Position numbers and translations under genes: made by a program. This document shows, one piece after another, positions 3,459 through 48,323 of a stretch of 64,000 nt of DNA (position 1 is its first letter; every line of letters starts with the position of its first letter). The notes below the pieces were generated by a model. That model was not told the origin of the DNA. It saw only the letters and a list, made by a program, of their open reading frames with translations, and did no database searches. This DNA is from Gerris lacustris (Eukaryota > Arthropoda > Insecta > Hemiptera > Gerridae). The stretch lies in the NCBI GenBank assembly GCA_951217055.1, contig OX578283.1, positions 28,705,427 through 28,769,426 of the forward strand, written 5' to 3'.

Positions 3459-4670
3459 TTATGGTTGTTTTTTTATAATTTTGTATTCTTTGTAAAGGTC
3501 ATTGATTACTTCTGTGCAAGATTCTCTGTAAGCCTTATTATTTTCAAAAGCTTTTGAGCGAAATTCTACATCACCATCTGTCATAAACTTGAAGAATTTT
3601 TCAGGAGTGTTAATCGTTTTTAAGTATTCTTGAGGGAGAGCTGTTGTCATGGTGTAAAATGCTTTAGCAATTATGCCTGCGCATCTGTAATAGTCGCACG
3701 ATTCTAGAAACATTTGTTTTGGAAGTATCTTGGAAGGTTTAAGTCCTGCTTTGGTCAAAGTTCTTGATAGAGCGTCGTAATAGACTGTTAAGAATGCCGG
3801 TATTTTAAACTTCAAAACATCGTAAGAATACTTAACTGTTAAGAAAACATTAAGTTCGAAAGCAGGAGGTGCTATCCGACAAGCTTGAAAATCAACCAAT
3901 AAAACGTCTTCCACTTTACCTTCTGACGTACATTTGTACATGAAGTTCATAGTCCATGGATCCCCGTGATTCAAAACATTTCTGTACTTCTTACTAGGTT
4001 TAACAGCTTCTATAATTGTGTTTTTAGCCCAGTCTGCCAATTCTAACTTGTCTTCAGGCGGTATTTCGTCCATTTTCTCCAAAATGAAATGTTTTAAAGT
4101 ATTATAAAGACCTCGTAAGTCTCTACTTTCGTCTTTGACAACATCGCTTATTAAAGTTTCGAAACAGATCCAAGGGAATTTTTCAGATATCGATTTATCT
4201 GATTTTTCTTCAAGAATAATCGAAGCAGCGTGAAAAATAGCTAATTTTTCAACAGTCATTTTATTAAGACCGTCGTTTGTCACGAATTTAATTTCGTATC
4301 CCGCAGCTGATAAATCCTCGAAAATCGCGAACTTGTTAAATTCGTTCACGTAGCATCTAGCTGTTAATTTTTCATCTACTTGAGATTGCAGCTCGTCGAT
4401 AATTCCATCTAACATATAATACTCTTTTTCAAAATATCTATTTTTTTTTAAATAATCAAAAATCAACGGATCATCCGACGCCTTTTTAATGAAAAAACTG
4501 AGAATATTTTCGTCTTCAAACATTTTAAACCTTATCTTTAATATGCAGTGCTCTCCATGAAAGCCGATTATTTGATTAAATTTCTCTATTTTCCAATCGA
4601 TTATGTCGAAATTTTTATGGGCATAAATCTTATTTAAAATATGACTACACAATTCTTTGCTTACTTCCAT
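3459..4670 (-). CDS. EcKinase-like (DUF227/CHK) small-molecule kinase
   Basis: A 403-residue protein encoded in one uninterrupted exon, the only convincing protein gene in the window. It belongs to the ecdysteroid-kinase-like/CHK family, which has a choline-kinase/aminoglycoside-phosphotransferase fold. Known members phosphorylate hydroxylated small molecules such as ecdysteroids, and the family is linked to steroid storage and detoxification in insects. Visible signatures are a Lys-containing FFIKKA strand near 59-64 (ATP-anchoring position), an EKEYYML helix near 81-87, the hinge-like FAIFEDLSAAGY (114-125), the Brenner-type catalytic loop NHGDPWTMN (H235, D237, N242) and the metal-binding LLVDFQ (D260). 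Length matches the usual 400-420 aa. All catalytic residues are present and no frameshift is seen, so it appears functional. There is no signal peptide or membrane segment, so a cytosolic enzyme is expected. A TCAGT initiator-like motif lies about 20 nt upstream of the ATG (4691-4695, minus), and a poly(A) signal follows the stop. The true substrate cannot be told from sequence. Confidence 0.93.
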   Translation of the reverse strand: MEVSKELCSHILNKIYAHKNFDIIDWKIEKFNQIIGFHGEHCILKIRFKMFEDENILSFFIKKASDDPLIFDYLKKNRYFEKEYYMLDGIIDELQSQVDEKLTARCYVNEFNKFAIFEDLSAAGYEIKFVTNDGLNKMTVEKLAIFHAASIILEEKSDKSISEKFPWICFETLISDVVKDESRDLRGLYNTLKHFILEKMDEIPPEDKLELADWAKNTIIEAVKPSKKYRNVLNHGDPWTMNFMYKCTSEGKVEDVLLVDFQACRIAPPAFELNVFLTVKYSYDVLKFKIPAFLTVYYDALSRTLTKAGLKPSKILPKQMFLESCDYYRCAGIIAKAFYTMTTALPQEYLKTINTPEKFFKFMTDGDVEFRSKAFENNKAYRESCTEVINDLYKEYKIIKKQP

Positions 4671-5629
4671 TTCGATTTGAGATCCACTTCACTGAATGTA
4701 AATAGTTAAACTCAATAATGAATAATGTTTAAACTCTTTTAATAATTTCATGAATTTCTCATTTACATGGAGATGGCTTTATATACATAAATTAGAAATG
4801 CAAAATTACCCTAGGCCTGGAAAGCATTTTTTTTTAAGTTCTGATAACTGATAAGTTTAACATTATTCAAATGAAAACATGGTATAGTTCGAGGTTAATG
4901 TTACCGTAAGAAAAAAACCTTTTTTTTCCAGCTAATTGTTCCATTTGAGGTTACTCTGTTAATGACTACGCAATGTTATATCGTGTTTATAGCATTTGAA
5001 AGAAAAAAATATATTTTCCTAAAGTAAATTATGCATGTATTTTTACGACTTTTATTATAATTTGCAATGTCTATAAAGCTTTGAATTTTTATTTGAAATG
5101 TAAATGATTATGATAACTATAGCTCAACATCCTTCATATAAATATCATAAAATACTAATCACTTAAATATTAGACTAATGGTTTTATCTTGCGAATGTTA
5201 AGTGTGTATAAATATTTATGAAAATATTCTAGCCAACAGACAATTTTATTATCAATTATGAATAATAAATTTAAAATATTTTTTTTCTTATAAGAATTTG
5301 AAATTATTTATGATGGGATAGTAAACCTTTTTTTCGCCTTGATTTAATTCTTAAACGACCAATTTGATTATAATTTTTCAGTAAATTATATTCAGGGATT
5401 ACTAAAAATAAAAAATAAAGAAGTACTATACAAACTATTTACTAATTAATTTCGTTAATTGATGTCAACATAAAGTTTGTTATTTATATATATATATATA
5501 TATTATTTTTTATTTTATAGTCTTATTTCTTATAGACTCATTGAGTAATACTATCAAAAATATCATCGTATTTTAAGTATTATTATATTGATTTTATATT
5601 AATCAAATCCTTACTTTTAGAAATTCAAA
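4671..5629. other. Upstream region of the kinase gene, A+T-rich
   Basis: No further gene is visible. The stretch contains a short (TA)n run near 5486-5502. The kinase promoter should lie at its left edge. No convincing TATA box was found at the expected distance from the TCAGT motif. Confidence 0.5.
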
Positions 5630-6216: not shown

Positions 6217-6235
6217 TTTTTCTTTTTATTAGTTT

Positions 6236-6291
6236 TAGATAGTATTCATACTACGGAAAGATTAAATTTTTAATTTAAATCAAATTATAAT
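6236..6291 (-). repeat. tRNA-unit family, left fragment of an interrupted copy
   Basis: It matches the tRNA-unit segment running from GTATTCATACTACGGAAAG to AAATCAAATTATAATT. The continuing unit sequence is found again only after 7440, on the far side of the LINE fragment. Confidence 0.65.
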
Positions 6292-7398
6292 TGTTACGTC
6301 TTGCACTATCTGCCTTCAAGACCAGCCCAGTCAACAGTATTTTGGTCAAGGCAAATGAACCTCCTCTTGCCCTGAGACGCGACTTTTTACTTCTACGCTA
6401 CGGACTAAAAATAAAACGCTTCCCGGACAACACTTGCTTTAAATTATTTCAGGACCTAAAACTTACAAATAAATATACACAAAAACCCACATGTCTACGA
6501 CCGCCAGGTCACAGATTCAAAGCTCTTGTAGATGAATTAAACCTTTCTTCAGAATATGGCAAAATTAAAGAATACAGTATCCCTCCCATTGCACCTTGGA
6601 GCACTAAACGTCCCGGCACACGATACTTGACAAGACAAAGAAAAGACCAAGCCCATCTGCAACAACTCCACCAAGACCACCTAAAGGACAAGAATGACCA
6701 CCGGACGAACTCACATCATTACACTGACGGCTCCAAGACCCGCGAAGGGACCGGCTGTGCCTATGTCTCATCATCAGAACAAGGAATGTTCTCCTGCTAG
6801 AAGTGGAGTTCGATCCTCACAATAGAGCTGGAGGCCATCCTACATGCTCTGAATTCAGCCGTAAACCAAGGACTAGACGCTGCCACAATTTATACTGACT
6901 CAAAATCAGCTATAGCAGCTTTAGATAAAATGTTCATTCAAAATTTGACAGTTTTCAAAATTAGATATTTGATAGCAAGGACAAAATTAAAGGTACAATA
7001 TTGTTGGGTACCTAGCCATGTAGGGATTTCCGGAAATGAGACTGCTGACTTACTAGCGAGACAAGCAATAACTGACAGACTGAGTACTGAGACAGAGGTT
7101 ATACCTAGAGACTTGGACTGTAATATCAGGGCAAAAATTAAAGAGAAATGGCAACAGACTTGGACAGACACCACTAACAACAAACTACGACGCATAAAAC
7201 CTTTAATAGGTGACTGGACTTCCTCATATAGAAAAACAGACAGGAAGAGACAATACTTTGCAGACTGAGAATAGGACATACTCGACTTACGCACAGTTAT
7301 TTGTTAACTAGAGATAGAGAAATACCAAGATGTAGATTATGTGACGATACTCTGACTGTAGCTCATATACTGGCTACAGTACAGTCATGCGGCTCATG
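6291..7398 (+). pseudogene. Non-LTR retrotransposon RT tail, RNase H and zinc-knuckle-like end
   Basis: A 5'-truncated retrotransposon remnant. Translation starts in the RT C-terminal region (LRLALSAFKTSPVNSILVKA), characteristic of I/Jockey-like LINEs. It then enters an RNase H domain with HYTDGSK (first catalytic Asp), TIELEAILHAL (Glu), IYTDSKSAIAAL (Asp) and WVPSHVGISGNETADLLA (final Asp). An in-frame TAG at 6798-6800 breaks the reading frame, which continues unchanged until a frameshift and stop near 7266. In the shifted frame the terminal RIGHTRLTHSYLLTRDREIP and CRLCDDTLTVAHIL (Cys-Cys-His) follow, ending about 7398. An A-rich tail (7421-7432) fits a retroposed 3' end. The remnant is dead: it has one nonsense and one frame disruption and lacks the catalytic RT core. 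Confidence 0.85.
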
Positions 7399-7435: not shown

Positions 7436-7490
7436 ATATAAATATTATTATTAACTATGGGAGACATACAGAGAAAAATAAACTTACTTT
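7436..7490 (-). repeat. tRNA-unit family, right fragment of the interrupted copy
   Basis: ATTATTAACTATGGGAGACA followed by TACAGAGAAAAATA continues the unit sequence that stopped at 6291. The unit is lost beyond about 7490 and the tRNA module is missing. Confidence 0.6.
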
Positions 7491-25650: not shown

Positions 25651-25711
25651 GCTTCCAAGCATACTGAAATTAACGGGAGCATGAGGATAATATTAAAGAA
25701 CGACATATCTT
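25651..25711 (+). repeat. Family K, 5' piece of an interrupted copy
   Basis: A mutated head hairpin, GCTTCCAAGCATACTGAAAT, leads to AAGAACGACATATCTT. The copy continues at 26089 after the inserted tRNA-unit monomer. Confidence 0.65.
25699..25711 (+). repeat. 13-bp target-site duplication, left copy
   Basis: AACGACATATCTT, identical to 26089-26101. Confidence 0.85.
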
Positions 25712-26088
25712 AATTTATAATCAAATTATAATTACTATTTATAAAGGGAGACAGACAGAGATAAATAGACTTCAGCGCCGGGACTCGAACCACGGACCTC
25801 CCCCTCATATCCAGTGTGCGGGAGCTCTAACCAATTAAGCTACACTGAAGAATACTTTCCTCTGACGATATCGATAGGATACCTAATCCCGAATTAAGCT
25901 TTCAAATGTTTCTACAAGTCTTAGAAGTCAACAATCGACAATTGAACTGGACTGAGAAATACGCTTGTAATTATAAAGTACTCAATTAGTACCTGTACTT
26001 AGTACAATCAATTAGAAATTCAATTTTTACAAGTTATTGGTAGTATTCATACTACGAAACGTTTAAATTTTAATTAAAATCAAATTAT
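25712..26088 (-). mobile_element. tRNA-unit family monomer inserted in a K repeat
   Basis: One complete unit in minus orientation with the tRNA-like module at 25771-25849. Both outer ends carry the same ATCAAATTATAA sequence, so the copy has short terminal direct repeats, as expected if it derives from a tandem array or circular template. It interrupts a K repeat and is bounded by an exact 13-bp duplication, which defines its ends and shows it moved as a unit. Conserved landmarks are TACTACGAAAC, TACTCAATTAGTACCTGTAC and AAGCTTTCAA. Confidence 0.85.
25771..25849 (-). tRNA. tRNA-like module of the monomer
   Basis: The minus strand has a 7-bp acceptor stem (TTCAGTG/CGCTGAA), an A box around GTAGCTTAATTGG and a B box GGTTCGAGTCC. 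The anticodon region contains CTGGATA but is expanded and does not fold into a normal 5-bp stem with 7-nt loop. This is a decayed tRNA-like sequence, not a working tRNA. Confidence 0.5.
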
Positions 26089-26101
26089 AACGACATATCT
26101 T
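26089..26101 (+). repeat. 13-bp target-site duplication, right copy
   Basis: AACGACATATCTT, matching 25699-25711. Confidence 0.85.
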
Positions 26102-28362: not shown

Positions 28363-29003
28363 AAAAAGCAAATATTCACGGCAATAGAACTAGACTGAGA
28401 ATTAACGCTTATAATTATAAAGTACTCAATTAGTACCTGTACCTAGTGCAATCAATTAGAAATTTAATTTTTTAAGTTTTAGGTAGTATTCATACTACGG
28501 AAAGATTCAATGTTACTTTAAATCAAATTATAATTATCATTAACTACGGGAGACATACAGAGAAAAAAAGATCCCAGCACCGGGACTTGAACCACGGGCC
28601 TCCTACAATATATCCGTTACAGGCGCTCTTACCAACTGAGCTATACCGGAGAATGATTTTTCTCTGTCGTTACCGATACAAAGTCCCGAATCCAAGCTTT
28701 CAATCTTTTCTACAAGTCTAGCAAGCCAAATATTCACGGCAATACATGTATTTTATATATATATATTTATATAAGTATAATATTATATGATGGAATAAAG
28801 AGAATTTAATTTAATTTAATTTAATAGATCTAGACCGAGAATTAACGCTTATAATTATAAAGTACTCAATTAGTACCTGTACCTAGTACAATCAATTTGA
28901 AATTCAAATTTTTAAGTTTCAGGTAGTATTCATACTACGGAAAGATTAAATTTTACTTTAAATCAAATTATAATTATCATTAACTACGGGAGACATACAG
29001 AGG
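28363..29003 (-). mobile_element. tRNA-unit family, tandem dimer, minus orientation
   Basis: The first unit runs from AAATATTCACGGCAATAG (28370) to the same sequence at 28728, with a tRNA-like module at 28572-28650. The second unit starts at 28728 but is interrupted after GGCAATA by an A+T-rich insert (about 28745-28832). It resumes at CTAGACCGAGAATTAACGC and stops at CATTAACTACGGGAGACATA. It then flips into an inverted segment. Confidence 0.75.
28572..28650 (-). tRNA. tRNA-like module of the dimer
   Basis: The minus strand shows a good A box (TAGCTCAGTTGG) and B box (GGTTCAAGTCC). The anticodon arm contains an insertion (ACGGATATATT) and is not canonical. Confidence 0.5.
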
Positions 29004-29071
29004 TGCATAGGGGTCTATTTTTCTCCGTATGTCTCCCGTAGTTAATGATTATTATAATTTGATTTAAACTA
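29004..29071 (+). mobile_element. Inverted 3' end of the tRNA-unit dimer
   Basis: TTTTTCTCCGTATGTCTCCC to TTTGATTTAAA repeats, on the plus strand, the 3' terminal segment of the unit. With the preceding minus-strand segment it makes a hairpin with arms about 28961-29001 and 29021-29066. Confidence 0.75.
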
Positions 29072-29183
29072 AAATATTTCTATGAAAATTGGACAAAATA
29101 AATATTCTATGGAAACGTTAATTATAATCATCCTTTAAATTCCTTTCATTCATTAAATACATTTGTTGAGGGTCAAAAAATTA

Positions 29184-34154: not shown

Positions 34155-34166
34155 TATTCCTAATTG
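34155..34166 (+). repeat. 12-bp direct repeat, left flank of the tRNA-unit array
   Basis: TATTCCTAATTG, identical to 41097-41108. Interpreted as a target-site duplication. Confidence 0.8.
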
Positions 34167-34226
34167 TTAATTTAAATCAAATTATAATTATTATTAACTA
34201 CGGGAAACAGACAGTGAAAAATACAC

Positions 34227-34298
34227 TCCTGTGCCGGGATTTGAACCACGGGCCTCTATATTTCCAGTATAGCGCTCTTCCATCTAAGCTACGCAGGA
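34227..34298 (-). tRNA. tRNA-like gene, array minus copy 1
   Basis: 72 nt, sequence as in the plus copies (see 35321-35392). Confidence 0.5.
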
Positions 34299-34575
34299 GA
34301 ATGATTTTTCACTACCGTAATCGATAACTAGTCCCGAATCCAAGCTTTCAATATTCATATACATTTAGACAGTCAATATTTATGACATTAGAACTAAACC
34401 AGAATTAACGCTTATAATTATAAAGTACTCAATTAGTACCTGTACCTTGTACAATCAATTCGAAATTCAATTTTTTTAAGTTTTTGGTAGTTTTCATACT
34501 ACGGAAAGTTAAATTTTAATTTAAATCAAATTATAATTATTATTAACTACGGGAAACAGACAGTGAAAAATACAC

Positions 34576-34647
34576 TCCTGTGCCGGGATTTGAACCACGG
34601 GCCTCTATATTTCCAGTATAGCGCTCTTCCATCTAAGCTACGCAGGA
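34576..34647 (-). tRNA. tRNA-like gene, array minus copy 2
   Basis: Identical to minus copy 1. Confidence 0.5.
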
Positions 34648-34924
34648 GAATGATTTTTCACTACCGTAATCGATAACTAGTCCCGAATCCAAGCTTTCAA
34701 TATTCATATACATTTAGACAGTCAATATTTATGACATTAGAACTAAACCAGAATTAACGCTTATAATTATAAAGTACTCAATTAGTACCTGTACCTTGTA
34801 CAATCAATTCGAAATTCAATTTTTTTAAGTTTTTGGTAGTTTTCATACTACGGAAAGTTAAATTTTAATTTAAATCAAATTATAATTATTATTAACTACG
34901 GGAAACAGACAGTGAAAAATACAC

Positions 34925-34996
34925 TCCTGTGCCGGGATTTGAACCACGGGCCTCTATATTTCCAGTATAGCGCTCTTCCATCTAAGCTACGCAGGA
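34925..34996 (-). tRNA. tRNA-like gene, array minus copy 3
   Basis: Identical to minus copy 1. Confidence 0.5.
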
Positions 34997-35273
34997 GAAT
35001 GATTTTTCACTACCGTAATCGATAACTAGTCCCGAATCCAAGCTTTCAATATTCATATACATTTAGACAGTCAATATTTATGACATTAGAACTAAACCAG
35101 AATTAACGCTTATAATTATAAAGTACTCAATTAGTACCTGTACCTTGTACAATCAATTCGAAATTCAATTTTTTTAAGTTTTTGGTAGTTTTCATACTAC
35201 GGAAAGTTAAATTTTAATTTAAATCAAATTATAATTATTATTAACTACGGGAAACAGACAGTGAAAAATACAC

Positions 35274-35308
35274 TCCTGTGCCGGGATTTGAACCACGGGC
35301 CTCTATAT
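35274..35308 (-). pseudogene. tRNA-like gene, truncated at the inversion junction
   Basis: Only the 3' half (T arm, acceptor strand and part of the anticodon stem) is present. The sequence turns around at 35308/35309. Confidence 0.7.
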
Positions 35309-35357
35309 GAAAAATCATTCTCCTGCGTAGCTTAGATGGAAGAGCGCTATACTGGAA
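35309..35357. other. 49-bp spacer at the centre of the giant inverted repeat
   Basis: Single-copy relative to the two arms. It consists of GAAAAATCATTC plus the 5' part of the first plus-strand tRNA-like module. Arms extend leftward from 35308 and rightward from 35358 as reverse complements for about 1.14 kb. Confidence 0.85.
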
Positions 35358-35392
35358 ATATAGAGGCCCGTGGTTCAAATCCCGGCACAGGA
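35321..35392 (+). tRNA. tRNA-like gene, array plus copy 1 (anticodon loop reads GGA)
   Basis: A 72-nt cloverleaf. Acceptor stem TCCTGCG/CACAGGA pairs at six of seven positions. D stem is GCTT/GAGC. Anticodon stem CTATA/TATAG is perfect, with a 7-nt loop CTGGAAA and anticodon GGA at positions 34-36. The variable loop is 5 nt. The T arm is CGTGG-TTCAAAT-CCCGG with two mismatches. A box TAGCTTAGATGG and B box GGTTCAAATCC fit RNA polymerase III promoters, and a T5 terminator lies at 35398-35402. GGA would decode Ser UCC, but tRNA-Ser normally has a long variable arm, absent here. The weak T stem is shared by all family copies. The sequence can plausibly be transcribed, but whether it is ever charged is doubtful. 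A tRNA predictor may report Ser or pseudogene. Confidence 0.55.
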
Positions 35393-35669
35393 GTGTATTT
35401 TTCACTGTCTGTTTCCCGTAGTTAATAATAATTATAATTTGATTTAAATTAAAATTTAACTTTCCGTAGTATGAAAACTACCAAAAACTTAAAAAAATTG
35501 AATTTCGAATTGATTGTACAAGGTACAGGTACTAATTGAGTACTTTATAATTATAAGCGTTAATTCTGGTTTAGTTCTAATGTCATAAATATTGACTGTC
35601 TAAATGTATATGAATATTGAAAGCTTGGATTCGGGACTAGTTATCGATTACGGTAGTGAAAAATCATTC

Positions 35670-35741
35670 TCCTGCGTAGCTTAGATGGAAGAGCGCTATA
35701 CTGGAAATATAGAGGCCCGTGGTTCAAATCCCGGCACAGGA
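35670..35741 (+). tRNA. tRNA-like gene, array plus copy 2
   Basis: Identical to copy 1. Confidence 0.5.
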
Positions 35742-36018
35742 GTGTATTTTTCACTGTCTGTTTCCCGTAGTTAATAATAATTATAATTTGATTTAAATTA
35801 AAATTTAACTTTCCGTAGTATGAAAACTACCAAAAACTTAAAAAAATTGAATTTCGAATTGATTGTACAAGGTACAGGTACTAATTGAGTACTTTATAAT
35901 TATAAGCGTTAATTCTGGTTTAGTTCTAATGTCATAAATATTGACTGTCTAAATGTATATGAATATTGAAAGCTTGGATTCGGGACTAGTTATCGATTAC
36001 GGTAGTGAAAAATCATTC

Positions 36019-36090
36019 TCCTGCGTAGCTTAGATGGAAGAGCGCTATACTGGAAATATAGAGGCCCGTGGTTCAAATCCCGGCACAGGA
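36019..36090 (+). tRNA. tRNA-like gene, array plus copy 3
   Basis: Identical to copy 1. Confidence 0.5.
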
Positions 36091-36367
36091 GTGTATTTTT
36101 CACTGTCTGTTTCCCGTAGTTAATAATAATTATAATTTGATTTAAATTAAAATTTAACTTTCCGTAGTATGAAAACTACCAAAAACTTAAAAAAATTGAA
36201 TTTCGAATTGATTGTACAAGGTACAGGTACTAATTGAGTACTTTATAATTATAAGCGTTAATTCTGGTTTAGTTCTAATGTCATAAATATTGACTGTCTA
36301 AATGTATATGAATATTGAAAGCTTGGATTCGGGACTAGTTATCGATTACGGTAGTGAAAAATCATTC

Positions 36368-36439
36368 TCCTGCGTAGCTTAGATGGAAGAGCGCTATACT
36401 GGAAATATAGAGGCCCGTGGTTCAAATCCCGGCACAGGA
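36368..36439 (+). tRNA. tRNA-like gene, array plus copy 4
   Basis: Identical to copy 1. Confidence 0.5.
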
Positions 36440-36716
36440 GTGTATTTTTCACTGTCTGTTTCCCGTAGTTAATAATAATTATAATTTGATTTAAATTAAA
36501 ATTTAACTTTCCGTAGTATGAAAACTACCAAAAACTTAAAAAAATTGAATTTCGAATTGATTGTACAAGGTACAGGTACTAATTGAGTACTTTATAATTA
36601 TAAGCGTTAATTCTGGTTTAGTTCTAATGTCATAAATATTGACTGTCTAAATGTATATGAATATTGAAAGCTTGGATTCGGGACTAGTTATCGATTACGG
36701 TAGTGAAAAATCATTC

Positions 36717-36788
36717 TCCTGCGTAGCTTAGATGGAAGAGCGCTATACTGGAAATATAGAGGCCCGTGGTTCAAATCCCGGCACAGGA
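36717..36788 (+). tRNA. tRNA-like gene, array plus copy 5
   Basis: Identical to copy 1. Confidence 0.5.
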
Positions 36789-37065
36789 GTGTATTTTTCA
36801 CTGTCTGTTTCCCGTAGTTAATAATAATTATAATTTGATTTAAATTAAAATTTAACTTTCCGTAGTATGAAAACTACCAAAAACTTAAAAAAATTGAATT
36901 TCGAATTGATTGTACAAGGTACAGGTACTAATTGAGTACTTTATAATTATAAGCGTTAATTCTGGTTTAGTTCTAATGTCATAAATATTGACTGTCTAAA
37001 TGTATATGAATATTGAAAGCTTGGATTCGGGACTAGTTATCGATTACGGTAGTGAAAAATCATTC

Positions 37066-37137
37066 TCCTGCGTAGCTTAGATGGAAGAGCGCTATACTGG
37101 AAATATAGAGGCCCGTGGTTCAAATCCCGGCACAGGA
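37066..37137 (+). tRNA. tRNA-like gene, array plus copy 6
   Basis: Identical to copy 1. Confidence 0.5.
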
Positions 37138-37414
37138 GTGTATTTTTCACTGTCTGTTTCCCGTAGTTAATAATAATTATAATTTGATTTAAATTAAAAT
37201 TTAACTTTCCGTAGTATGAAAACTACCAAAAACTTAAAAAAATTGAATTTCGAATTGATTGTACAAGGTACAGGTACTAATTGAGTACTTTATAATTATA
37301 AGCGTTAATTCTGGTTTAGTTCTAATGTCATAAATATTGACTGTCTAAATGTATATGAATATTGAAAGCTTGGATTCGGGACTAGTTATCGATTACGGTA
37401 GTGAAAAATCATTC

Positions 37415-37486
37415 TCCTGCGTAGCTTAGATGGAAGAGCGCTATACTGGAAATATAGAGGCCCGTGGTTCAAATCCCGGCACAGGA
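37415..37486 (+). tRNA. tRNA-like gene, array plus copy 7
   Basis: Identical to copy 1. Confidence 0.5.
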
Positions 37487-37763
37487 GTGTATTTTTCACT
37501 GTCTGTTTCCCGTAGTTAATAATAATTATAATTTGATTTAAATTAAAATTTAACTTTCCGTAGTATGAAAACTACCAAAAACTTAAAAAAATTGAATTTC
37601 GAATTGATTGTACAAGGTACAGGTACTAATTGAGTACTTTATAATTATAAGCGTTAATTCTGGTTTAGTTCTAATGTCATAAATATTGACTGTCTAAATG
37701 TATATGAATATTGAAAGCTTGGATTCGGGACTAGTTATCGATTACGGTAGTGAAAAATCATTC

Positions 37764-37835
37764 TCCTGCGTAGCTTAGATGGAAGAGCGCTATACTGGAA
37801 ATATAGAGGCCCGTGGTTCAAATCCCGGCACAGGA
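37764..37835 (+). tRNA. tRNA-like gene, array plus copy 8
   Basis: Identical to copy 1. Confidence 0.5.
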
Positions 37836-38112
37836 GTGTATTTTTCACTGTCTGTTTCCCGTAGTTAATAATAATTATAATTTGATTTAAATTAAAATTT
37901 AACTTTCCGTAGTATGAAAACTACCAAAAACTTAAAAAAATTGAATTTCGAATTGATTGTACAAGGTACAGGTACTAATTGAGTACTTTATAATTATAAG
38001 CGTTAATTCTGGTTTAGTTCTAATGTCATAAATATTGACTGTCTAAATGTATATGAATATTGAAAGCTTGGATTCGGGACTAGTTATCGATTACGGTAGT
38101 GAAAAATCATTC

Positions 38113-38184
38113 TCCTGCGTAGCTTAGATGGAAGAGCGCTATACTGGAAATATAGAGGCCCGTGGTTCAAATCCCGGCACAGGA
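38113..38184 (+). tRNA. tRNA-like gene, array plus copy 9
   Basis: Identical to copy 1. Confidence 0.5.
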
Positions 38185-38461
38185 GTGTATTTTTCACTGT
38201 CTGTTTCCCGTAGTTAATAATAATTATAATTTGATTTAAATTAAAATTTAACTTTCCGTAGTATGAAAACTACCAAAAACTTAAAAAAATTGAATTTCGA
38301 ATTGATTGTACAAGGTACAGGTACTAATTGAGTACTTTATAATTATAAGCGTTAATTCTGGTTTAGTTCTAATGTCATAAATATTGACTGTCTAAATGTA
38401 TATGAATATTGAAAGCTTGGATTCGGGACTAGTTATCGATTACGGTAGTGAAAAATCATTC

Positions 38462-38533
38462 TCCTGCGTAGCTTAGATGGAAGAGCGCTATACTGGAAAT
38501 ATAGAGGCCCGTGGTTCAAATCCCGGCACAGGA
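38462..38533 (+). tRNA. tRNA-like gene, array plus copy 10
   Basis: Identical to copy 1. Confidence 0.5.
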
Positions 38534-38810
38534 GTGTATTTTTCACTGTCTGTTTCCCGTAGTTAATAATAATTATAATTTGATTTAAATTAAAATTTAA
38601 CTTTCCGTAGTATGAAAACTACCAAAAACTTAAAAAAATTGAATTTCGAATTGATTGTACAAGGTACAGGTACTAATTGAGTACTTTATAATTATAAGCG
38701 TTAATTCTGGTTTAGTTCTAATGTCATAAATATTGACTGTCTAAATGTATATGAATATTGAAAGCTTGGATTCGGGACTAGTTATCGATTACGGTAGTGA
38801 AAAATCATTC

Positions 38811-38882
38811 TCCTGCGTAGCTTAGATGGAAGAGCGCTATACTGGAAATATAGAGGCCCGTGGTTCAAATCCCGGCACAGGA
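38811..38882 (+). tRNA. tRNA-like gene, array plus copy 11
   Basis: Identical to copy 1. Confidence 0.5.
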
Positions 38883-39159
38883 GTGTATTTTTCACTGTCT
38901 GTTTCCCGTAGTTAATAATAATTATAATTTGATTTAAATTAAAATTTAACTTTCCGTAGTATGAAAACTACCAAAAACTTAAAAAAATTGAATTTCGAAT
39001 TGATTGTACAAGGTACAGGTACTAATTGAGTACTTTATAATTATAAGCGTTAATTCTGGTTTAGTTCTAATGTCATAAATATTGACTGTCTAAATGTATA
39101 TGAATATTGAAAGCTTGGATTCGGGACTAGTTATCGATTACGGTAGTGAAAAATCATTC

Positions 39160-39231
39160 TCCTGCGTAGCTTAGATGGAAGAGCGCTATACTGGAAATAT
39201 AGAGGCCCGTGGTTCAAATCCCGGCACAGGA
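39160..39231 (+). tRNA. tRNA-like gene, array plus copy 12
   Basis: Identical to copy 1. The unit that follows is 350 bp because of one extra T near 39330. Confidence 0.5.
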
Positions 39232-39509
39232 GTGTATTTTTCACTGTCTGTTTCCCGTAGTTAATAATAATTATAATTTGATTTAAATTAAAATTTAACT
39301 TTCCGTAGTATGAAAACTACCAAAAACTTTAAAAAAATTGAATTTCGAATTGATTGTACAAGGTACAGGTACTAATTGAGTACTTTATAATTATAAGCGT
39401 TAATTCTGGTTTAGTTCTAATGTCATAAATATTGACTGTCTAAATGTATATGAATATTGAAAGCTTGGATTCGGGACTAGTTATCGATTACGGTAGTGAA
39501 AAATCATTC

Positions 39510-39581
39510 TCCTGCGTAGCTTAGATGGAAGAGCGCTATACTGGAAATATAGAGGCCCGTGGTTCAAATCCCGGCACAGGA
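39510..39581 (+). tRNA. tRNA-like gene, array plus copy 13
   Basis: Identical to copy 1. Confidence 0.5.
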
Positions 39582-39858
39582 GTGTATTTTTCACTGTCTG
39601 TTTCCCGTAGTTAATAATAATTATAATTTGATTTAAATTAAAATTTAACTTTCCGTAGTATGAAAACTACCAAAAACTTAAAAAAATTGAATTTCGAATT
39701 GATTGTACAAGGTACAGGTACTAATTGAGTACTTTATAATTATAAGCGTTAATTCTGGTTTAGTTCTAATGTCATAAATATTGACTGTCTAAATGTATAT
39801 GAATATTGAAAGCTTGGATTCGGGACTAGTTATCGATTACGGTAGTGAAAAATCATTC

Positions 39859-39930
39859 TCCTGCGTAGCTTAGATGGAAGAGCGCTATACTGGAAATATA
39901 GAGGCCCGTGGTTCAAATCCCGGCACAGGA
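39859..39930 (+). tRNA. tRNA-like gene, array plus copy 14
   Basis: Identical to copy 1. Confidence 0.5.
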
Positions 39931-40207
39931 GTGTATTTTTCACTGTCTGTTTCCCGTAGTTAATAATAATTATAATTTGATTTAAATTAAAATTTAACTT
40001 TCCGTAGTATGAAAACTACCAAAAACTTAAAAAAATTGAATTTCGAATTGATTGTACAAGGTACAGGTACTAATTGAGTACTTTATAATTATAAGCGTTA
40101 ATTCTGGTTTAGTTCTAATGTCATAAATATTGACTGTCTAAATGTATATGAATATTGAAAGCTTGGATTCGGGACTAGTTATCGATTACGGTAGTGAAAA
40201 ATCATTC

Positions 40208-40279
40208 TCCTGCGTAGCTTAGATGGAAGAGCGCTATACTGGAAATATAGAGGCCCGTGGTTCAAATCCCGGCACAGGA
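40208..40279 (+). tRNA. tRNA-like gene, array plus copy 15
   Basis: Identical to copy 1. Confidence 0.5.
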
Positions 40280-40556
40280 GTGTATTTTTCACTGTCTGTT
40301 TCCCGTAGTTAATAATAATTATAATTTGATTTAAATTAAAATTTAACTTTCCGTAGTATGAAAACTACCAAAAACTTAAAAAAATTGAATTTCGAATTGA
40401 TTGTACAAGGTACAGGTACTAATTGAGTACTTTATAATTATAAGCGTTAATTCTGGTTTAGTTCTAATGTCATAAATATTGACTGTCTAAATGTATATGA
40501 ATATTGAAAGCTTGGATTCGGGACTAGTTATCGATTACGGTAGTGAAAAATCATTC

Positions 40557-40628
40557 TCCTGCGTAGCTTAGATGGAAGAGCGCTATACTGGAAATATAGA
40601 GGCCCGTGGTTCAAATCCCGGCACAGGA
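40557..40628 (+). tRNA. tRNA-like gene, array plus copy 16
   Basis: Identical to copy 1. Confidence 0.5.
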
Positions 40629-40905
40629 GTGTATTTTTCACTGTCTGTTTCCCGTAGTTAATAATAATTATAATTTGATTTAAATTAAAATTTAACTTTC
40701 CGTAGTATGAAAACTACCAAAAACTTAAAAAAATTGAATTTCGAATTGATTGTACAAGGTACAGGTACTAATTGAGTACTTTATAATTATAAGCGTTAAT
40801 TCTGGTTTAGTTCTAATGTCATAAATATTGACTGTCTAAATGTATATGAATATTGAAAGCTTGGATTCGGGACTAGTTATCGATTACGGTAGTGAAAAAT
40901 CATTC

Positions 40906-40977
40906 TCCTGCGTAGCTTAGATGGAAGAGCGCTATACTGGAAATATAGAGGCCCGTGGTTCAAATCCCGGCACAGGA
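40906..40977 (+). tRNA. tRNA-like gene, array plus copy 17
   Basis: Identical to copy 1. It is the last in the array. Confidence 0.5.
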
Positions 40978-41096
40978 GTGTATTTTTCACTGTCTGTTTC
41001 CCGTAGTTAATAATAATTATAATTTGATTTAAATTAAAATTTAACTTTCCGTAGTATGAAAACTACCAAAAACTTAAAAAAATTTTAAAAAAATTG

Positions 41097-41108
41097 TATT
41101 CCTAATTG
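41097..41108 (+). repeat. 12-bp direct repeat, right flank of the tRNA-unit array
   Basis: TATTCCTAATTG, matching 34155-34166. Confidence 0.8.
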
Positions 41109-47954: not shown

Positions 47955-48323
47955 CAATTCAATTTTTAAGTTTTTTGTAGTTTTATACTAAAGAAAGTTT
48001 AAATTTTAATTTAAATCAAATTATAATTATTATTAACTACGGATGAATAATTATAATTATATATTGAATAATTATAAGCGTTAATTCTCAGTTTAGTTCT
48101 AATGTCATAAATATTGACTGTCTAAAGGTATATGAATATTGAAAGCTTGGATTCGGGACTAGTTATCGATTACGGCAGTGAAAAATCATTCTCCTGCGAA
48201 GCTTAGTAGGCAAGAGCATCTGTACTGGAAATACAGGAGACCCGTGGTTCAAATCCCGGCGCTGGAGTGTATTTTTCACCGTCTGTTTCCCGTAGTTAAT
48301 AATAATTATTATTTGATTTAAAA
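47955..48323 (+). mobile_element. tRNA-unit family copy with internal inversion
   Basis: The left segment (47955-48042) is the unit in minus orientation. At about 48043-48060 it switches to plus orientation and runs through the tRNA-like module (48192-48266) to the terminus TTTGATTTAAA. Sequence around TACAAGGTACAGGTACTAAT is missing at the junction. A perfect 14-bp duplication bounds the whole, so the inverted structure is one insertion. Confidence 0.85.
48192..48266 (+). tRNA. tRNA-like module of the inverted copy (GGA anticodon)
   Basis: Acceptor TCCTGCG/CGCTGGA (six of seven pairs), anticodon stem CTGTA/TACAG with loop CTGGAAA, B box GGTTCAAATCC. It is better conserved than the 25.8-kb and 28.6-kb modules and supports GGA as the ancestral anticodon. 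The A-box region carries small insertions. Confidence 0.5.

Follow-up and report, generated by a model that had tools for sequence, protein, structure and literature searches.

A target-site-flanked array of tRNA-bearing units in Gerris lacustris that resembles insertions of Penelope-like elements

An inverted array of 349-bp units

We analysed a 64,000-nucleotide stretch of Gerris lacustris DNA (the window), in which two copies of TATTCCTAATTG bracket an array of minus-strand units (34167-35308) joined head-to-head to plus-strand units (35308-41084). The features, with positions on the repeat unit denoted U, are:

34155-34166, plus strand: left target-site duplication (TSD), TATTCCTAATTG
34167-35308, minus strand: minus arm of 3.3 units; its outer end is an A end (~U301), its inner end U207 (tRNA position 38)
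34226-34298, minus strand: first of 3 minus tRNA-like domains (RF00005, 55 bits; ARAGORN anticodon GGA)
35308, no strand: head-to-head junction of the arms, one base shared
35308-41084, plus strand: plus arm of 16.6 units; its inner end is U157, its outer end a B end
35321-35393, plus strand: first of 17 plus tRNA-like domains, recurring every ~349 bp up to 40906-40978
41049-41067, plus strand: small hairpin CCGTAGTATGAAAACTACC, found by eye, in the stretch from the A to the B end site (last unit shown)
41085-41096, plus strand: 12-nt stretch TTAAAAAAATTG that copies part of the unit's 3' end once more, by slippage or as filler, finishing at U349 and preceding the TSD
41097-41108, plus strand: right TSD, TATTCCTAATTG

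As the initial annotation had stated, the 12-bp direct repeat stands only at the outer edges of the array: the window has exactly two copies of TATTCCTAATTG, compared with a mean of 0.06 in shuffled sequences, none of 100 of which reached two copies. Between the copies lie 3 complete minus and 17 plus tRNAs. Of 16 complete plus units, 15 share one 349-bp sequence and the other has a T added; both complete minus units have that shared sequence too. The annotation was right about minus units and 17 plus units of 349 bp, but not about a 49-bp spacer between them. The minus arm halts within the tRNA at U207, the plus arm begins at U157, and the two abut at 35308 with one base in common and no separate spacer sequence; the 49 nt are the gap between the perfectly inverted parts and nothing more. 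A single central spacer was rejected, as the arms meet in a direct joint. None of the 12 open reading frames (ORFs) of at least 110 amino acids in the window overlaps the array, which in this respect differs from an autonomous Penelope-like element (PLE) with its reverse transcriptase and GIY-YIG domains. A protein search gave two EcKL-type relatives, at 40% and 26% identity, and the Pfam family EcKL would point to an insect source.

The tRNA occupies U170-242, about 170 nt into the unit, and is a tRNA-like domain without a long variable arm and with A- and B-box-like sequence. Directly 3' of it is a tract of five T residues. Such a tract is expected to terminate Pol III, so a full unit RNA would require another promoter. 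In a cmscan search of 801 bases comprising the full unit (E up to 5), only tRNA was matched and no hammerhead or other Rfam ribozyme was found, in agreement with the earlier impression that the unit has no hammerhead core. A very reduced hammerhead motif may be present, because Rfam likewise gave no hammerhead for six ends of PLEs, although hammerhead-like motifs occur in four of them. A special fold of the unit RNA was rejected, its structure being no stabler than that of shuffled sequences (z -0.59; 23 of 100 shuffles were equally stable), and a scan of viral contigs with a 35-mer gave no matches.

A family of insertions with target-site duplications

The array is not a one-off. An exact 40-mer of the unit is present 2,269 times in the 937-Mb genome, and the array belongs to a large family of mobile elements that typically consist of tRNA-bearing 349-bp units strung together head-to-head. 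We parsed 60 insertions, taken from the best 40 of 412 candidates (a choice biased to long arrays) and from 20 of 42 further 40-mer clusters, which were the first ones on contig C1 and are less biased. There were 46 two-armed insertions, 12 with a single arm and 2 compound ones (L009 and L041), which lie outside the two-arm count. The parsing covered matches of at least 94% identity in clusters that measured at least 100 bp and lay more than 60 bp from a locus end, so older copies are under-represented.

When genome-wide copies were checked for flanking duplications, as had been proposed, TSDs of at least 10 bp were found in 47 of the 60 insertions and in 44 of the 46 with two arms, where they mostly measure 12-14 bp. 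A TSD of at least 11 bp was present in 33 of 40 arrays, compared with 18 of 1,560 mismatched flank pairs. One locus scored as TSD-less by the script (L020) has a 13-bp repeat, TATTTTTAATTGT, that is readable by eye. Joining the flanks revealed a non-self match across the joint at 8 of 49 loci, that is, a repeat paralogue representing the unoccupied site. An array-less site with both TSD copies, which the initial annotation would have held against insertion, was sought in these paralogous repeats, and each had a single copy, cleanly for L012, L013 and L017 and in diverged form for L010, L024, L034, L052 and L055. At the window locus, joining the flanks gave only the self-match around the joint, plus three short left-flank matches, and no paralogous empty site. 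An ordinary tRNA gene cluster or satellite grown in place by unequal exchange is ruled out by the TSDs and unoccupied sites. Family-wide TSDs, together with unoccupied paralogous sites for eight siblings, bear out the earlier suggestion of entry as one insertion, and the sequence evidence supports the view that the array is a single insertion with a true target-site duplication.

The outer ends follow a fixed rule. Two-arm insertions pair an A end with a B end in 44 of 46 cases and never A with A. After trimming of the TSD, A ends fall at U289-303 (42 of 43) and B ends at U336-349 or U1-5 (44 of 44), so that the two sites are ~50 nt apart on the unit. The exceptions to the pairing are L029 and L067, the former having B/B ends, being mixed with an 85-88% subfamily and lacking a 10-bp TSD. 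The plan also holds in five two-arm insertions shorter than one unit (L051, L052, L054, L059 and L062). No single-arm copy (n=12) begins at the tRNA 5' end. In uncontrolled counts of microhomology between outer ends and TSD (n=87), 50 ends overlapped by at least 1 nt, 7 showed no overlap and 30 had a gap.

Penelope-like elements and the plan of insertion

GIY-YIG PLEs are abundant in this genome, and we scored the best 150 of 1,680 candidates. Scored neighbours no more than 10 kb apart were head-to-head in 16 cases, tail-to-tail in none and on the same strand in 4. The one PLE insertion read whole (L075) has two arms that are 99.8% alike, a 13-bp TSD and ~30 extra nt at one end only (TSD and tail identified by eye). 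Excerpts of a published account (PMC3846280) describe rotifer Penelope copies with inverted ends, one of which may bear a tail, and PLE TSDs of 8-10 bp that are absent in some copies; they attribute the head-to-head plan to self-priming on an antisense template. The tRNA family resembles these elements (EN+, with pLTR) in its head-to-head inverted ends, tandem copies, TSD and tail on one outer end (PMC3846280, in part; L075). What a PLE passenger should share with the local PLEs, namely head-to-head arms, a TSD and a tail at one end, was found, with one PLE insertion read whole. Unlike PLEs, the unit is only 349 nt long, has no ORF and carries a tRNA where the PLEs of this genome have a minimal type-I hammerhead-like motif. 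Its TSDs of 12-14 bp compare with 8-10 bp in the published PLEs (PMC3846280, in part) and 13 bp in L075. Between the A-B tail of the unit and six PLE 3' regions there was no clear homology, only A+T-rich matches, the best of 33 nt at 88%.

The initial annotation had read the duplication as a mark of LINE-type retroposition, but head-to-head arms with fixed A and B ends are the layout of local PLEs and, in the excerpts, of published ones (PMC3846280). If a LINE had retroposed a multimeric RNA with twin priming (5' inversion), the inverted part, the TSD and the short overlaps at joints would all be accounted for. Twin priming has one fixed 3' end and a second priming site that varies. Here both ends are fixed, as A plus B in 44 of 46, a terminal poly(A) is lacking, and PLEs of the same genome share the orientation and, in one copy, the plan, which makes this origin quite improbable. 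The array is probably a retrozyme-like, non-autonomous passenger that PLE machinery inserted in one event, with a tRNA-bearing RNA of 349 nt as its monomer.

In the mechanism that we propose, a PLE reverse transcriptase/GIY-YIG endonuclease would make a staggered cut in the target, and the two target 3' ends would pair with the RNA at A and at B respectively, each priming cDNA. The template would be a covalently closed 349-nt RNA, which each arm would go round several times, and the two cDNA ends would then be joined via microhomology or with filler. The tRNA would take the place of the PLE hammerhead, and host tRNA enzymes may act at the anticodon loop to open the circle or to seal it, which is the least certain step. 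We infer both the circular form of the template and the role of the tRNA.

Counted against the passenger reading are the 12 single-arm and 2 compound insertions among 60, the 2 of 46 two-arm insertions that break the A+B rule, the lack of clear homology between the A-B tail and the six PLE 3' regions and the shorter or absent TSDs of published PLEs (PMC3846280, in part), although the local PLE has 13 bp.

The template and its relation to known elements

We located 110 inner ends, of which 23 lie at U206-208 (tRNA position 38±1, next to the canonical intron junction) and 8 at U195-197 (tRNA position 27), both windows having been picked after inspection of the data. A third cluster at U190 was rejected (3 of 110 at U189-191; p 0.07, not significant). 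Arms end preferentially within the tRNA. In tRNAs, bases A37 and G26 frequently bear modifications, and they lie just 5' of positions 38 and 27. It is a serious possibility, which we rate just short of even, that the pile-ups are plain reverse-transcriptase stops at these modified bases and that the tRNA has no circle-making role; this would be compatible with the passenger reading and contests only its last step. In a comparison by pass over 100 arms, the rate of stopping at U207 was similar on first (9 of 84) and later passes (12 of 197), which fits a partial block. At U196 it dropped from 5 of 73 to 2 of 180, which a constant block does not predict. Modifications on the base-pairing face usually give misreading, but we saw no A37 substitution and a single G26 change, in a divergent arm of L019. 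A fuller version of the proposal, which we hold tentatively and think rather doubtful, is a ribozyme-free retrozyme: the tRNA would replace the hammerhead, host tRNA-processing enzymes would cut and seal at 37/38 to form the 349-nt circle, and a Penelope-like reverse transcriptase would copy it by symmetric two-ended target-primed rolling-circle reverse transcription from A and B.

Array-wide substitutions were found in 12 of 40 arrays, and in all 7 that could be tested the variant was carried by both arms, as in all 16 covering units of L032. Because the arms share such variants, each array would derive from one monomer; at least in arrays with informative variants, every covering unit of both arms stems from a single one. 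This ancestry supports a retrozyme-like multimeric or circular template, much as the initial annotation had suggested for a concatemeric or circular RNA. Pol II read-through of an existing array could instead yield a long tandem RNA for reverse transcription by PLE machinery, with no circle. Homogeneous arrays would give homogeneous transcripts, and the many arms that finish at U207 could reflect an RNA whose 5' end arose by cleavage in the anticodon loop. We consider such a linear multimer unlikely, however, as the 12 of 40 arrays in which all covering units carry a variant require passage through one monomer, and as such a multimer predicts patchy inheritance of single-unit mutations, which was seen only in L047, aside from poly-A length, L009 and L029. 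Highly improbable is an origin at the DNA level, by insertion at staggered breaks of circular DNA of 349 bp, or of a product of rolling-circle DNA synthesis, and partial later expansion by unequal exchange. It would produce identical tandem units and filler at joints, but leaves three things unpredicted: the use of one A and one B end at fixed places, the stopping of arms at tRNA positions 38 and 27, and a layout like that of PLEs. Later expansion is also unneeded, given sub-unit two-arm insertions with the same plan.

The family also stands close to metazoan non-LTR retrozymes. As excerpted (PMC7229834), these have tandem 150-450-bp low-G+C units, from dimers to long multimers, no LTR, PBS or PPT, TSDs of more than 4 bp when present, and circular RNA. 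The tRNA family shares with them the small low-G+C units in tandem, the range from dimers up to long multimers, the absence of LTR, PBS and PPT, and a TSD. Circular RNA would be a further likeness; differences are the tRNA and a unit in which Rfam showed neither a hammerhead nor another ribozyme. The integration partner of animal retrozymes is not deducible from their sequence, according to the part consulted of a 2020 review (PMC7761336), whereas the insertion plan of the tRNA family points to a PLE. The family bears on which machinery integrates animal retrozymes. It connects PLE-like insertion with small tandem elements and suggests a tRNA as a possible substitute for a self-cleaving ribozyme. 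Since the family is young, numerous and nearly identical, the insertion reaction can be read directly, through both priming sites, the joints, the stop positions and the monomer bottleneck, and self-priming on an antisense template, as the excerpts explain the PLE plan (PMC3846280), becomes testable against two-ended priming. The literature searched, a single collection seen partly as excerpts, contained no tRNA-bearing PLE passenger or ribozyme-free retrozyme.

With tRNA-derived SINEs the family shares a tRNA domain with box-A- and box-B-like sequence, TSDs and many copies. Their 5' tRNA head, LINE-like 3' tail and monomeric form do not describe it: the tRNA lies at U170-242 rather than at a 5' head, the units are mostly in head-to-head two-arm tandems, and outer ends lie near U297 or U349. 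A tRNA-containing circle closed at the intron site would share the form of the permuted-tRNA intermediate. Circularly permuted tRNA genes and tricRNAs are, from the excerpts, related tRNA-circle systems (PMC3978253, PMC6614914); unlike in these, the circle itself would, as proposed here, be the mobile template.

The array and its family

In the array of head-to-head tandem 349-bp tRNA-bearing units, ARAGORN found three minus-strand and 17 plus-strand tRNAs, in agreement with the unit counts of the initial annotation, and Rfam scored them at 55 bits apiece. Fifteen of the 16 complete plus units are identical, and the remaining one has an extra T. The minus arm (an arm being one tandem run of units) ends within a tRNA. 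The 49-bp spacer previously placed between the arms is not a separate piece, and a central spacer as its own segment was rejected, as the two arms join directly at 35308. The sequence TATTCCTAATTG occurs twice in the window, both times at the array edges and with no third occurrence, and none of 100 shuffles contained two copies; the single target-site duplication (TSD) described at the outer edges therefore stands.

Features of the window (strand in brackets where assigned)
3459-4688 (-), ecdysteroid-kinase-like ORF (Pfam EcKL)
6223-6296 and 7444-7484, diverged family copies or fragments
6801-7268 (+), RNase H domain, probably from a retroelement
25707-26090, older family copy
28371-28707, older family copy
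28825-29075, older family copy without a TSD-like repeat
34155-34166 and 41097-41108, TSD copies TATTCCTAATTG at both edges of the array
47956-48322, older family copy

The older copies and fragments in the window are 77-93% identical to the family. All of the four older copies except that at 28825-29075 have TSD-like repeats (13, 11 and 14 bp), and an otherwise isolated tRNA-Ser, at 48191, falls within the copy at 47956-48322. Older copies differ from young ones at acceptor position 67 and in an anticodon-stem pair changed on both sides (for example, CTATA/TATAG to CTGTA/TACAG at 48191), and the anticodon GGA is kept in all six aligned forms. It is doubtful that the tRNA functions in translation, since the acceptor stem of the young form contains a C-A mismatch and the T arm a bulge.

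The 937-Mb assembly, which contains the window, was searched for the unit as the initial annotation had proposed. With a 701-bp query there were 412 candidates and 40 scored places; all 40 of these, the window array included, are tandem arrays. An exact 40-mer over the 3' part of the tRNA has 1,176 + 1,093 occurrences in the assembly (reversed control, 0), and 100 of these places formed 45 clusters, in which the strand changed from minus to plus 19 times and never from plus to minus. Extrapolated from 45 clusters per 100 places, the number of young loci genome-wide would be about 1,000. The array belongs to a real, young and abundant mobile family. At four loci (L009, L029, L063 and L065), arrays lie beside or intermixed with an 82-88% diverged subfamily.

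Target-site duplications and fixed outer ends

Flank repeats of at least 11 bp were found at 33 of the 40 arrays, as against 18 of 1,560 mismatched pairings of a left flank with other arrays' right flanks. Together with 20 less biased loci, these arrays gave 60 parsed insertions: 46 simple two-arm, 12 single-arm and 2 compound. TSDs of 10 bp or longer were present in 44 of the 46 two-arm insertions and in 47 of the 60 overall; in those 44, the TSD measured 12 bp in 17 cases, 13 bp in 12 and 14 bp in 7, with an A+T content of 89%.

A search for an empty site with one TSD copy had also been proposed, and we compared the joined flanks of 49 loci with all sequence collected in the analysis. Non-self matches crossed the joint for eight sibling loci, and alignments of these paralogous repeat copies show one TSD copy, clean for L012, L013 and L017 and diverged for L010, L024, L034, L052 and L055, and L038 yielded none; the joined flanks of the window locus gave no paralogous empty site in the sequence collected. 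Given its own TSD and the sibling loci, a single insertion event at the window locus is well supported.

We numbered the unit (U) from the position directly after TTAAAAAAATTG, so that the tRNA spans U170-242. With the TSD trimmed, outer ends fall at two sites: A, at U289-303 in 42 of 43, and B, at U336-349 or U1-5 in 44 of 44, and a small hairpin is located between them. Two-arm insertions pair A with B in 44 of 46 cases, 23 in one orientation and 21 in the other, and A with A in none; the exceptions are L029 (B with B) and L067 (B with an odd end). At 50 of 87 ends, unit sequence overlaps the TSD by 1-9 nt; 7 ends are flush and 30 show a gap, in part owing to differing A-runs. Such overlaps would be expected if the ends of the target DNA anneal to the RNA template at the outer-end sites.

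Within arrays L019 and L038, units differ by 2 to 4 extra A in the A-run close to the B end, and one L019 unit carries a 24-nt A-rich insert there; the unit outside the A-run is free of such unit-to-unit variation. The old copy at L065 shows the same B and A ends.

Templates of the arms

A substitution not general to the family is present in every covering unit of 12 of the 40 arrays (L009, L012, L013, L016, L020, L021, L023, L024, L031, L032, L037 and L046), including 16 of 16 units in L032. Where both arms cover the site, both carry the variant (7/7: L009, L012, L013, L016, L020, L021 and L032). The 89A>G variant of L013 recurs in two L047 units. Leaving aside differences in poly-A length and the compound arrays L009 and L029, L047 alone looks patchy. 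A monomer stage would most simply allow new variants to reach all units. Shared variants could also arise by gene conversion, or from a linear monomer if the jumps from end to end were perfect, but each of these explains them less well; we infer that a circular template RNA, copied round several times by each arm, would explain them best.

Inner arm ends, those at the head-to-head joint, fell at U206-208 in 23 of 110 cases (19 at U207) and at U195-197 in 8 of 110; under a uniform spread the probabilities are 4e-25 and 6e-6, figures that are descriptive, as the sites were picked after viewing the data. U207 corresponds to tRNA position 38, immediately 3' of A37, and U196 to position 27, adjoining G26. 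One account of tRNA introns places the canonical position one nucleotide 3' to the anticodon (PMC4090602). Single-arm copies also stop at U207 (L025, L047, L049 and L053) and U196 (L060). The frequency of stops at U207 was 9/84 on the first pass and 12/197 on later ones; the corresponding figures for U196 were 5/73 and 2/180. These stops inside the tRNA point to an RNA template, but do not discriminate between reverse transcriptase being blocked by a modified base and an anticodon loop that carries a cut or seam. We hypothesize that the template is circular and that the tRNA has a part in making the circle.

Two plus-only arrays, L025 and L026 (C2:112.67-112.68 Mb), lie about 6 kb apart, both end at U76 and have a right flank in common, reflecting either a local duplication or rearrangement that cut the arrays. 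Locus L041 has four arms (-+-+) with both minus-plus joints near U133-137, which would reflect either a switch of template or foldback recurring at the same place.

Penelope-like elements and the tRNA unit

A GIY-YIG search of the genome gave 1,680 candidates, of which 150 were scored, with open frames of up to 900 aa; scored matches less than 10 kb apart were head-to-head in 16 cases, same-strand in 4 and tail-to-tail in none. One small Penelope-like element (PLE) insertion, L075, was read whole. It has two arms that are 99.8% alike and, by eye, a 13-bp TSD, TTTAAATTCAATT, on both sides and a tail of about 30 extra nt at one outer end only. For rotifer Penelope copies, one account describes inverted pLTRs, one of which may bear a 31-bp tail; TSDs there measure 8-10 bp or are absent (PMC3846280).

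Five PLEs have a minimal type-I hammerhead-like motif close to the 3' end: GGC-CTGAAGA-stem-GAAATATA-GCC (CUGAAGA core) in L069 and L071, and a variant core, AUGAUUA, which may be inactive, in L070, L072 and L075. These motifs were identified by pattern and eye against what we take to be the hammerhead core. The same reading noticed no such motif in L073 or L074, and Rfam detected no hammerhead in the PLE ends of L069-L074.

No ribozyme was found in the tRNA unit, as the initial annotation had observed for the hammerhead, and comparison of the unit with six PLE ends revealed no sequence kinship beyond A+T-rich matches. Unlike retrozymes, the family thus lacks a detected ribozyme, their defining feature, and unlike PLEs it is missing their defining protein; the array family nevertheless works like a Penelope-mobilised retrozyme, with PLEs as the probable source of its insertion machinery. 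In L075 the motif precedes the A-like end by about 75 nt, and in the tRNA unit the anticodon junction 37/38 precedes the A end by about 90 nt, so the tRNA occupies roughly the position that the motif has in these PLEs.
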